Below are positions 40,615 through 44,525 of a stretch of DNA of 64,000 bases, piece after piece. How positions within the stretch are numbered: the stretch's first letter is position 1; each line of letters starts with the position of its first letter. Source of the stretch: Taurinivorans muris. Lineage in GTDB: Bacteria; Desulfobacterota; Desulfovibrionia; Desulfovibrionales; Desulfovibrionaceae. The notes under the pieces were generated by a model, which worked only from the letters and a program-made list of their open reading frames with translations, did no database searches and was not told the DNA's origin. The stretch is taken from NCBI RefSeq assembly GCF_025232395.1, contig NZ_CP065938.1, positions 1,426,001-1,490,000 on the forward strand, in the 5' to 3' direction. A program made the position numbers and the translations under genes.

Positions 40615-43602
40615 TTATTCAGGAACAAAGCCCGTGTCTTCCGTCAGATTTTCCGCACTCGCACTTGTGCGGGCAAGTTCGTCACAGCGTTCATTTTCGG
40701 GATGTCCCGCATGCCCTTTTATCCAGTTGAACGTGACATTGTGCCGGCTCAGGGCTTTATCCAGTTCCATCCATAAATCCTGATTTTTCACGGGCTTTTT
40801 CTGGGAATTTTTCCAGCCGTTTTTTTTCCAATTTTCCAGCCAGCCCTGTTTTATGGCTTTAGCCACATATTGGGAATCCGTATAAATATTGACAGTGCAG
40901 GCTTCTTTCAATTTATTCAGTCCGGCGATGACGCCCGATAATTCCATGCGGTTATTGGTGGTAAGCGAAAACCCTCCGGAAAGCTCCTGTTTTTTGCCTT
41001 TAAATTCCAAAATCGCCCCATAGCCCCCTTTTCCGGGATTGCCGAGGCAAGAACCGTCGGAATAAAGATTGACTTCTTTTTCCGTTTTTAAGGCATTATT
41101 GAAAACGCTTTTTTCAGAATGCTCCGCCGTATTTTTTTCAGCGCTGCTTTTACGGCTTTTTTTCGGCTTTTCCGCTGCCTCTTTTGTTTTCGCCTTGATA
41201 TTTTTTTCCGCTTTCCCGATTGGCTTCGTATTGCGTTCTTCATCCGTTATCACCGCTTTTTGTGGCAGCTGGTTCGGCAGCAGCGGAATCTGCACGGGGA
41301 AAGACTCGGATTCCTCACTGTTTTCCCCGATAATGCGGGTATAGGAACAGGATTTGTTGGGGCAGGCGTAATGTTCGCCTTTTGTTTTGGTATTCTTGCG
41401 CACAAGAAGAGGAGAATCGCACACGGGGCAAGGCTCCGCAACAGGCATGTCCCAAAGGGCATAATCGCATTTCGGGTACGTGCTGCAAGAATAGAAAATT
41501 TTGCCGCGTTTGGTGCTTTTTTCAACCAAAACACCGGTTTTGCACTGCGGGCAGGTAACGCCCGTGGAATAAGGCGCGGTATAATCGCATTTCGGATAAT
41601 TGGCGCAAGCGATAAACCTCGCTCCGGCATGGGAACGTTTTTCCACCGTATTTCCGCCGCATTTCGGGCAAGTGCCGACAATTTTCTGCTCCGGAGCGGT
41701 CTGCAGTTCTATTTCGCCCTGCTCGTTGCGGATGAAATTGGAGGTGAATTTACAGTCGGGATAACCGGAACAAGCCAAAAACTCGCCGCTTTTCCCGAAC
41801 TTGATCGTCAGCGCTTTTCCGCATTTCGGGCAAGGCATGTCGGTTTCAACCCCTGATTTCATAGCTTTCATGTGTTCGCCCGCCTTGGCGAGGGTGCTGT
41901 TGAAATCGCCCGAAAAATCCTTAAGCAGTTTCACCCAGGCGAGTTCGCCGTCCGCAACCTTATCAAGGTTTTCCTCCATTTTCGCGGTGAAACCGACGTC
42001 CATAAGGGTTGGGAAATTTTCACGAAGCTGGGAGCAAACAACATTGCCAAGGTCTGTCGGCACAAAATGTTTGCCGTCCAAACGCACATACTCCCGGTCC
42101 TGGATTGTGGAAATAATGGTTGCGTAAGTGGAGGGACGGCCAATGCCCTTTTCTTCCAGTTCACGCACAAGGGAAGCTTCCGTGTAGCGCGGGTTCGGCT
42201 GGGTGAATTTTTGTTCTTTTATGATCTGCTCGACGCCAAGCACATCATTCGCATTCAATTCAGGCAATTCATCCACTTTTTCATCCGTGGAAGAAAGGAC
42301 GGTTAAAAACCCTGCGAATAAAAGACGTTCTCCCTTTGTTTTCCATTGTGTTTTAAGGGGATAAAACTCTTTTTCCGTATCGCTTTGAGGCGTTATTTCC
42401 GTATTGTCGCACACAATGCTTACCGCTGTGTCGTGGAATTTCGCATTCGCCATCTGCGAAGCGACAAAACGCGCCCAAATGAGATTGTACAGGCGGTATT
42501 GGTCGGGAGTGAGGGCTGACTTCACATCTCCGGGCATAAGGGAAACATCGACGGGACGAATGGCTTCGTGGGCGTCCTGTATGCTTTTCTTGCCTTTGAA
42601 ATCACGGCCTTTTCCGCCGGCAGCCAAAAATTCCCTGCCGTACTTTTGTTCGATAAATTCTTTTGCCGCGTTCTTGGCTTCGTCGGCGATACGCACGGAG
42701 TCCGTACGCATATAGGTGATAAGAGCCACCGTGCCTTTATCTTCAATATCTATGCCCTCATAAAGACGCTGGGCGGCGGACATGGTCCTTTTGGCGGAAA
42801 AGCCCAAACGCTGGTTGGCTGCCTGCTGCAGGGTGGAAGTGGTAAAAGGCGCCTGCGGGCTTTTGCTCCGTTCTTTTTCTTCAACGCTTTCCACGACAAA
42901 AGAAGCGGATTTCAAAGCTTTTTCAACGGCAAGGGCCTGCTCTTCATTTTTTATCTGCGCTTTTTTGCCGTTGATTTTTGCCAGCTCCGCCTTGAAAGGC
43001 ATACCGCCGGCGGCAAGCTGGGCTTTGAAATTCCAAAATTCTTCCGGAACAAAAGCAAGGCGTTCTTCCTCGCGTTCAACGATGAGCCTTAAAGCGACAG
43101 ACTGCACACGTCCTGCGGAAATGCCCCGTTTCACCGATTTCCATAAAAGAGGGGATATTTTGTAGCCGACCAATCTGTCCAAAATACGTCTTGCCTGCTG
43201 CGCTTCAAAAAGATTGGGATCGATTTCGCGGGGGTGGGCAATGGCGTCTTTAACCGCTTTCGCCGTAATTTCGTTGAATTGGATACGTTTTATATTGTCA
43301 GAGCAATTTTTTATCGATTCCGCGATATGCCATGCGATAGCTTCCCCTTCGCGGTCCGGGTCGGGCGCAAGGTAGACAATGCCGGCTTTCTTCGCGGCAT
43401 CCTGCAAGCTTTGCACAACTTTTTCCTTGCCTTGAATGGTGACGTATTTGGGCATGAACGTTTCTTCGTCAACGCCAAGCTCGCGGGAGGGCAAATCACG
43501 GATATGCCCGACGCTTGCCTGCACCAGATAATTATTGCCAAGAAATTTTTTTATTGTTTTAACCTTCGCAGGTGATTCCACAATGATAAGGTCTTTGCTC
43601 AT
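40615..43602 (-). CDS. DNA topoisomerase I fused to RNase HI
   Basis: One frame of 995 residues. Residues 1-590 are the type IA topoisomerase: Toprim domain (IIVESPAKVKTIKKFLG, DPDREGE at about 79) and the catalytic tyrosine in TYMRTDS (about 296). Four C-terminal four-cysteine zinc ribbons follow (about 593-775). After a Lys/Ala/Glu-rich linker comes a full RNase HI domain (about 840-985) with all catalytic acids: YSDGS, NRMELSGV, YTDSQYV and NERCDELA, plus KGHAGH. The enzyme would relax negative supercoils and cut the RNA of R-loops. No separate rnhA lies nearby. Confidence 0.93.
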   Translation of the reverse strand: MSKDLIIVESPAKVKTIKKFLGNNYLVQASVGHIRDLPSRELGVDEETFMPKYVTIQGKEKVVQSLQDAAKKAGIVYLAPDPDREGEAIAWHIAESIKNCSDNIKRIQFNEITAKAVKDAIAHPREIDPNLFEAQQARRILDRLVGYKISPLLWKSVKRGISAGRVQSVALRLIVEREEERLAFVPEEFWNFKAQLAAGGMPFKAELAKINGKKAQIKNEEQALAVEKALKSASFVVESVEEKERSKSPQAPFTTSTLQQAANQRLGFSAKRTMSAAQRLYEGIDIEDKGTVALITYMRTDSVRIADEAKNAAKEFIEQKYGREFLAAGGKGRDFKGKKSIQDAHEAIRPVDVSLMPGDVKSALTPDQYRLYNLIWARFVASQMANAKFHDTAVSIVCDNTEITPQSDTEKEFYPLKTQWKTKGERLLFAGFLTVLSSTDEKVDELPELNANDVLGVEQIIKEQKFTQPNPRYTEASLVRELEEKGIGRPSTYATIISTIQDREYVRLDGKHFVPTDLGNVVCSQLRENFPTLMDVGFTAKMEENLDKVADGELAWVKLLKDFSGDFNSTLAKAGEHMKAMKSGVETDMPCPKCGKALTIKFGKSGEFLACSGYPDCKFTSNFIRNEQGEIELQTAPEQKIVGTCPKCGGNTVEKRSHAGARFIACANYPKCDYTAPYSTGVTCPQCKTGVLVEKSTKRGKIFYSCSTYPKCDYALWDMPVAEPCPVCDSPLLVRKNTKTKGEHYACPNKSCSYTRIIGENSEESESFPVQIPLLPNQLPQKAVITDEERNTKPIGKAEKNIKAKTKEAAEKPKKSRKSSAEKNTAEHSEKSVFNNALKTEKEVNLYSDGSCLGNPGKGGYGAILEFKGKKQELSGGFSLTTNNRMELSGVIAGLNKLKEACTVNIYTDSQYVAKAIKQGWLENWKKNGWKNSQKKPVKNQDLWMELDKALSRHNVTFNWIKGHAGHPENERCDELARTSASAENLTEDTGFVPE

Positions 43603-43754
43603 AGCATTTCACTTTTATTTTTTTTATGGAGAATAAAGGAAAGAAAAAAAGCGTCAAGAAAAAATTTATGTTTTTTCAAAATTTTTCATTTCCGCAGGCG
43701 TGTTTTGCTTGCTTTTTTTCATAGGCTATATAACAATATCAATATGAGGTGAAT

Positions 43755-44525
43755 ATGAACAAAGCGTATGCGATTATACCAGCACGCTATGCGTCGACGC
43801 GTTTCCCCGCCAAGCCTTTGGCTGAAATCGGAGGGAAACCTCTTTTCTGGCATGTGTACATGCGGGCGAAACAGGCGGATATTTTTGAAGAAGTATGGCT
43901 TGCGACCGATGATGAACGGATTGAAAAAAAGGCGGAAGAAGCCGGGATTCCTTTCATTCACACCCGAAAAGAACATCAAAGCGGAACGGACAGGGTGCGC
44001 GAGGCTGTCAATATCCTGGGTTTGGACGCCAAGGCCGTCATTGCCAACATTCAGGGCGACGAACCGTTCATCACACGGGAAATGTTTGTAAAACTGCTTG
44101 AACCTTTTCAGTCTTCCCGCTGCGAAAGCGCTACCCTTGGCGTAATTCTCGATGAAGAAAAAGACAGGGAACGCATTTTTTCACCCAACCAAGTGAAAAT
44201 TGCGCTGGCGCAAAACGGCGAGGCACTCTATTTTTCCCGCTCCCCCATTCCTTTCGCCCGTGACGATGTGCGGAAAGCTCCTTATGTGGGGCATGTCGGC
44301 GTTTATGCGTTCAGACGCATCACGCTTGAAAAGATGGCGGAATTTCCGCCCAGTCCTTTGGAAGAAACCGAAAAACTGGAGCAGCTCCGTTTGCTTGAAC
44401 ACGGTATCCGCATGCAGGTACGCCTTATTTCGGAAGCTCCGCATGGCGTCGATACCCCGGAAGATTTGGAAAAAGCTCTTGAATATTACAATAACCACCC
44501 GGAATATTGGGTAAAATCAAAATAA
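43755..44525 (+). CDS. kdsB: 3-deoxy-manno-octulosonate cytidylyltransferase KdsB
   Basis: KdsB activates Kdo as CMP-Kdo for LPS core synthesis. The N-terminus AIIPARYASTRFPAKPLAEI is the nucleotide-binding signature, followed by EHQSGTDRVREA and IQGDEPF near residue 100. The 256-residue length is normal. The ATG at 43755 follows an AGGTG site; a GTG at 43749 in the same frame overlaps that site. It heads kdsB, a small membrane-protein gene and xth. Confidence 0.93.
   Translation: MNKAYAIIPARYASTRFPAKPLAEIGGKPLFWHVYMRAKQADIFEEVWLATDDERIEKKAEEAGIPFIHTRKEHQSGTDRVREAVNILGLDAKAVIANIQGDEPFITREMFVKLLEPFQSSRCESATLGVILDEEKDRERIFSPNQVKIALAQNGEALYFSRSPIPFARDDVRKAPYVGHVGVYAFRRITLEKMAEFPPSPLEETEKLEQLRLLEHGIRMQVRLISEAPHGVDTPEDLEKALEYYNNHPEYWVKSK

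Follow-up and report, generated by a model that had tools for sequence, protein, structure and literature searches.

The window, a stretch of 64,000 nucleotides of the Taurinivorans muris genome with a G+C content of 36% to 48% in 8-kb steps, contains on its reverse strand a single open reading frame that runs from an ATG to a stop codon without internal stops and encodes 995 amino acids (Table 1). The predicted protein begins with a complete type IA topoisomerase and four zinc ribbons of the C4 type; a low-complexity linker, 85-89 residues long, then leads to a ribonuclease HI (RNase HI) that is likewise complete. The Pfam matches of the protein follow in the order Toprim, Topoisom_bac, Zn_ribbon_Top1 and RNase_H. 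A sequence-only reading of this region had placed the frame at the correct coordinates and had described the same full topoisomerase, four ribbons and RNase HI with its catalytic residues in one frame, all of which stood; only its description of the linker as basic had to be toned down, because the Lys-rich linker of T. muris is mildly so, with 17 lysines and arginines against 14 aspartates and glutamates among 89 residues. The gene at 43749-44525, transcribed away from the fused gene, looks by eye like kdsB; a kdsB-like neighbour also lies beside the fusion at three other loci (L033, L034 and L035), and the genes downstream of the fusion differ. The genome is a single contig of 2,172,708 bases, 99% complete, with a match to Xsc above the cut-off for that protein. 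T. muris LT0009 is described as a cultured commensal of the mouse gut with a complete genome of 2.2 Mbp, a G+C content of 43.6%, taurine degradation by Xsc and publicly available proteome data (PMC10507020).

Table 1. Features of the fused gene, in positions of the window
Feature	Position	Strand	Evidence or remark
Whole fused gene (TopA, zinc ribbons, linker, RNase HI)	40615..43602	-	995 aa; ORF, Pfam, NCBIfam
Toprim domain, residues 5-112 (E9, D81, D83, E85)	43267..43590	-	Pfam PF01751
Type IA topoisomerase body, residues 127-560, active-site Tyr297	41923..43224	-	Pfam PF01131, 423.3 bits
Four C4 zinc ribbons, residues 588-755	41338..41841	-	PF01396; 16 Cys invariant, n=6 sequences
Low-complexity Lys-rich linker, residues 756-840	41083..41337	-	Sequence comparison; missing from the family's unfused TopA proteins examined
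Short hydrophobic stretch FPVQIPLLPNQLP, residues 768-780	41263..41301	-	Partly conserved, 3' of last zinc ribbon
RNase HI domain, residues 842-981 (D849, E887, D909, H964, D974)	40660..41079	-	PF00075; PRK00203; alignment with solved RNase H chains 1goc, 1goa

The N-terminal part is a bacterial topoisomerase I, as its score of 783.1 bits against the NCBIfam model topA_bact (TIGR01051, cut-off 456.4) is accompanied by near-full coverage of the model (positions 1-630 of 632). Sequence alignment finds E9, K13, D81, D83, E85, Y297 and R299 all in place, and the motif ITYMRTDS, which holds Tyr297, aligns with the solved topoisomerase I chain 9gda; E9, D81, D83 and E85 are presumably the acidic residues of the Toprim domain, Y297 the active-site tyrosine and R299 the arginine that follows it. 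Three stretches pass the threshold of Zn_ribbon_Top1, and four C4 sets can be recognized by eye (C591/594/611/617, C645/648/666/672, C684/687/706/712 and C725/728/747/752), invariant in all six aligned sequences. The protein shares the Toprim domain, topoisomerase body, active-site motifs and C-terminal zinc ribbons with bacterial TopA proteins of TIGR01051 that carry C4 ribbons, but adds to them a C-terminal linker and a whole second enzyme. At the 28 loci of unfused TopA examined in the family (one of them, L238, incomplete), the 27 complete proteins end 8-28 residues past the last cysteine, so that the linker and RNase HI of the fusion extend past the former end of TopA. A TopA protein extended at its C-terminus is also known from the TopA-SWIB fusion (NF004966), but there the added domain is SWIB and not a nuclease; the T. 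muris protein falls below the cut-off of NF004966 (714.6 versus 868) and has no SWIB domain among its Pfam matches.

The C-terminal part belongs to RNase HI by its matches to both RNase_H (PF00075, 164.6 bits versus a cut-off of 25.8) and the NCBIfam model of ribonuclease HI (PRK00203, 220.7 bits versus 160). Its alignment with solved RNase H chains covers almost the whole length and finds all five expected residues present: we take D849, E887, D909 and D974 to be the catalytic DEDD set and H964 to be the catalytic-loop histidine, with roles and E. coli numbering assumed. In its full domain and catalytic residues it resembles bacterial RnhA (PRK00203), but the usual RnhA is a free protein of about 155 amino acids, whereas this one is tethered behind TopA. 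RNase HI is tethered to another domain in two further arrangements, with the hybrid-binding domain dsRHbd (noted in PMC1950709) and with an acid phosphatase (PRK07238), but neither has a topoisomerase partner; against PRK07238 the T. muris protein reaches only 28.8 of the 326 bits set as its cut-off and matches positions 3-131 of 378.

All six sampled genomes of the genus carry the fusion, one of them in a gene interrupted by a contig end. The fused protein has 1029 amino acids in G086, 1024 in G039, 1020 in G101 and 1077-1080, according to the start chosen, in G067; in G113, which is of the same species as the window, the contig ends inside the gene, and the 552 residues that remain extend from the topoisomerase body to the RNase HI. 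Pfam topoisomerase, zinc ribbon and RNase_H domains are found in each of these five relatives. The fusion is real, as had been supposed: the chance that an assembly error or a frameshift produced it is negligible, since the frame is free of stops, the genome is a single contig, and five other genomes, one with a partial gene, show this in-frame architecture as well, which excludes chance or misassembly.

Both enzymes of the fusion are under purifying selection at similar slow rates. By a simple codon count, dN/dS is 0.054 for the TopA core and 0.053 for RNase H between T. muris and G086, and 0.062 and 0.064, respectively, between G086 and G101. Species pairs with dS of 0.65-1.62 gave dN/dS of 0.033-0.079, and one species pair with dS near 2.5 gave 0.073 and 0.092, for a full between-species range of 0.033-0.092; the remaining between-species pairs were saturated and yielded no value. 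Within the species (T. muris and G113), dN/dS of RNase H is 0.13, a value based on very few changes. The most diverged member of the genus, G067, has a TopA core 79% identical to that of T. muris. The linker is only 22-41% identical between species, varies from 89 to 159 residues but is in frame throughout the five genes compared, and has a net charge of -2 to +5 in four relatives. With both domains selected and the linker drifting yet in frame, both ends of the protein are apparently in use, and the linker resembles a flexible tether.

If the linker were cut by a protease, or if translation also began within it, RNase HI would be released and the cell would contain two separate enzymes, which is improbable on balance. 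The low complexity of the linker makes it a likely protease target, and candidate internal starts exist in all five genes: two GTG codons (residues 770 and 784) in the T. muris linker, GTG or ATG codons at a distance of 63-110 codons before the RNase HI motif in T. muris, G086, G039 and G101, and nine candidates in G067, the farthest 146 codons and the nearest 1 codon before that motif. A scan of the five genes with a short list of motifs found no Shine-Dalgarno-like motif before the internal starts, and the T. muris linker contains no ATG or TTG; this argues only weakly against internal initiation, because the true start of the fused gene also lacks a strong Shine-Dalgarno-like motif. None of the genomes examined shows a break of frame anywhere in the linker. 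Internal initiation alone would not require this, but cleavage would, so that the intact frame does not count against cleavage.

Just after the last zinc ribbon, FPVQIPLLPNQLP resembles the sequence FVQIPLLPxQLPPKA shared by G086 and G101 and, more loosely, its counterparts in G067 and G039; this stretch may be a binding motif or an internal start region. An AlphaFold model built from six sequences had a mean pLDDT of 43.5, too low for use in a fold search. RNA-primed DNA can be a substrate of RNase HI, and the QIPLL within the stretch is, we presume, loosely like a sliding-clamp-binding motif, two points in favour of a coupling that serves replication, through the removal of primers or fork-linked hybrids, and not transcriptional R-loops. 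This role is very unlikely, as the QIPLL stretch is not kept in G039 and as the partners of TopA named in the accounts consulted are RNA polymerase and single-stranded DNA (PMC10969213, PMC9352719).

The sequence-only reading had suggested looking for a second rnhA, and none was detected: the fused RNase HI is the sole PF00075 match in the T. muris genome, and the same holds for all six genus genomes. The fused protein is likewise the only type IA topoisomerase of T. muris found with TIGR01051 or with the fused protein itself as query, a protein search that also recovers lower-scoring type IA proteins in relatives. A single match to PF00521 (GyrA/ParC-type; C1:1618920-1620239, + strand, in an 831-codon frame) indicates one A-type subunit of gyrase or topoisomerase IV. 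Neither topoisomerase III nor topoisomerase IV was thus detected as a back-up for TopA in T. muris. Within the searches made, the topoisomerase set of T. muris is minimal, with one match of each of these two types. G039 and G086 each have one TIGR01051 match. G067 possesses a second type IA topoisomerase of 721 amino acids (L048, at G067:C38:12938-15061), 39% identical to the T. muris fusion, which means that sole supply by the fused enzyme is not general to the genus. No PF00521 match was found in G067 and G113, both draft genomes from which sequence may be missing.

Outside the genus, the search for other TopA-fused copies of RNase HI that the sequence-only reading had proposed returned none, among the matches listed in samples from family to phylum. 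In the family, 189 of 199 genomes have an RNase HI match, comprising the six fused genus members and 183 of the 193 others, and no TopA fusion is apparent by frame length among the listed matches of those 193 genomes. Two long frames (906 amino acids in G082 and 689 in G090) prove to be rnhA within a long frame of GC-rich DNA without TopA, and two genomes with long TopA frames (G028 and G044) have their rnhA on other contigs. PF00075 is matched in 167 of 170 genomes of the order and 156 of 159 of the class, and the last 251 residues of the T. muris fusion are matched in 339 of 395 genomes of the phylum; these samples overlap with that of the family. Among the matches listed for them, no RNase HI frame outside the genus is of TopA size, the longest having 514 amino acids in the order and class and 708, with an internal stop, in the phylum (G449). 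Nor does any fusion appear in the 80 named loci kept of at least 595 relatives, a set of one genome per species from which T. muris itself is possibly absent. These comparisons suggest that the fusion is lineage-specific within the sampled genomes; independent fusions may have occurred elsewhere in bacteria.

The titles, abstracts and passages of the PubMed Central literature searched contained no report of a TopA-RNase HI fusion, in agreement with the hunch that no such fusion had been characterised. The words "topoisomerase" and "RNase H" are absent from the main text of the T. muris paper (PMC10507020), and in the available portion of PMC10969213 "RNase H" occurs once only, in the reference list. 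An enzyme core with an added domain is a known kind of protein, but the combination of TopA with RNase HI appears to be undescribed in the literature searched.

The origin of the fusion was traced in a quick maximum-likelihood tree of RNase HI (117 rows without bootstrap, from 132 loci; identical rows were dropped and 80 viral loci were not included). All fused copies group together in a single clade (SH-aLRT 99), which adjoins unfused Desulfovibrionaceae RNase HI (supports 83 and 90) and is nested in a 47-row Desulfovibrionaceae group (SH-aLRT 92, below the value of 95 that the tool marks with a star) that includes one row labelled only Deltaproteobacteria. Because there is one fused clade and it lies inside the Desulfovibrionaceae, the fused RNase HI is most likely native to the family, and one fusion event would suffice. 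A horizontal or phage origin of RNase HI is unsupported, as the tree places the fused copies within Desulfovibrionaceae. One place covering 80% of the query was found in none of 1140 matching phage records and none of the best 5000 plasmid records, no TopA motif was found near RNase H in the 80 kept of 579 viral relatives, and a viral scan with the whole fusion gave 304 pattern matches and no relatives.

Also unsupported is an origin by read-through from a neighbouring rnhA, as a TopA motif near rnhA occurs at none of the 193 loci of unfused rnhA examined, a set made up of 33 loci from the family, 80 named and 80 viral ones, with flanks to about 1.5-6 kb, shorter at contig ends. None of the 28 unfused TopA loci contains a real RNase H motif, the single GHAGTQN in L220 being due to chance. 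As to the ancestral rnhA site, a search of the six genus genomes with the small gene that precedes rnhA in L054 gave a single weak match (E 0.17), the phosphomannomutase-like gene that precedes rnhA there has several paralogues in each of them, and a motif scan saw no constant synteny of the genes preceding rnhA in relatives.

Topoisomerase I is described as relaxing negative supercoils that arise behind RNA polymerase and RNase HI as degrading the RNA of R-loops, which accumulate upon loss of topA (PMC10969213, PMC9352719, PMC7140829). In both E. coli and M. smegmatis the C-terminal domains of topoisomerase I are reported to bind RNA polymerase, and the zinc ribbons of the E. coli enzyme to bind single-stranded DNA (PMC10969213, PMC9352719). 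Against this background, the fusion most likely brings RNase HI to where R-loops form, so that one protein would both prevent and clear them. The fused gene probably encodes a bifunctional enzyme that acts at the same sites on negative supercoils, which it would relax, and on R-loop RNA, which it would degrade. The gene probably arose by a single joining of the topA and rnhA that the ancestor of the genus already possessed. Its TopA part would bind negatively supercoiled single-stranded DNA behind RNA polymerase, cut it with Tyr297 and relax the DNA, and the RNase HI, attached through a flexible linker of about 90 residues, would cut the RNA of R-loops at the same spot. Relaxation would lower the odds that the transcript re-anneals, RNase HI would clear hybrids already formed, and the tether would take the place of whatever guides a free RNase HI to where it acts. 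We infer that the gene is translated as one protein, that both activities are present, and that they are co-located and cooperate.

The intact frame, the full domains, the fusion in six of six genus genomes, the low dN/dS of both parts, the failure to detect a second copy in T. muris and the reported binding of topoisomerase I C-terminal domains to RNA polymerase favour this bifunctional enzyme, and sequence and conservation together give good support to the encoding of relaxation and R-loop removal in a single polypeptide. Against it, cooperation does not follow from a long flexible linker as such, linker length is not conserved, RNase HII (one in T. muris, in a 270-codon frame) stays a separate enzyme, and G067 has its second type IA topoisomerase. 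The sequence-only reading had also relied on the relief of topA loss by extra RNase HI in E. coli, a genuine but contested background: partial suppression of a topA deletion by overexpressed RNase HI was reported but is disputed (PMC9352719, PMC7140829), and loss of rnhA worsens the topA phenotype (PMC9352719).

It is rather unlikely that the fusion is a neutral or economical one in a small genome, with the enzymes working independently side by side and the tether giving equal dosage only. The genome, at 2.17 Mb, is smaller than most listed for the family (many of those being drafts), the linker is fast-evolving and of variable length, and the domains look unaltered compared with free homologues. 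The fusion has nevertheless been kept in all six genomes of the genus, deeply diverged as these are, without damage to the linker and with no separate rnhA detected, and in E. coli both enzymes bear on the same problem (PMC9352719, PMC7140829). The bifunctional enzyme may, more tentatively, be a dedicated resolver of R-loops, in which the TopA part would find the R-loop by its displaced strand or by RNA polymerase, RNase HI would cut the RNA and TopA would remove the freed supercoil, all in one visit. As no topoisomerase III, topoisomerase IV or other RNase HI was detected, the whole task would fall to such a protein, which would then be essential.

Since the 1990s, the genetics of topA and rnhA in E. 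coli has fed an argument over whether preventing R-loops is the vital function of topoisomerase I (PMC9352719, PMC7140829). A lineage, probably from the gut, in which both enzymes are fused, and in which no second copy of either was detected in T. muris, is independent evolutionary evidence for a working link between them. The fusion is a natural construct for probing whether the jobs of topoisomerase I and RNase HI belong together.
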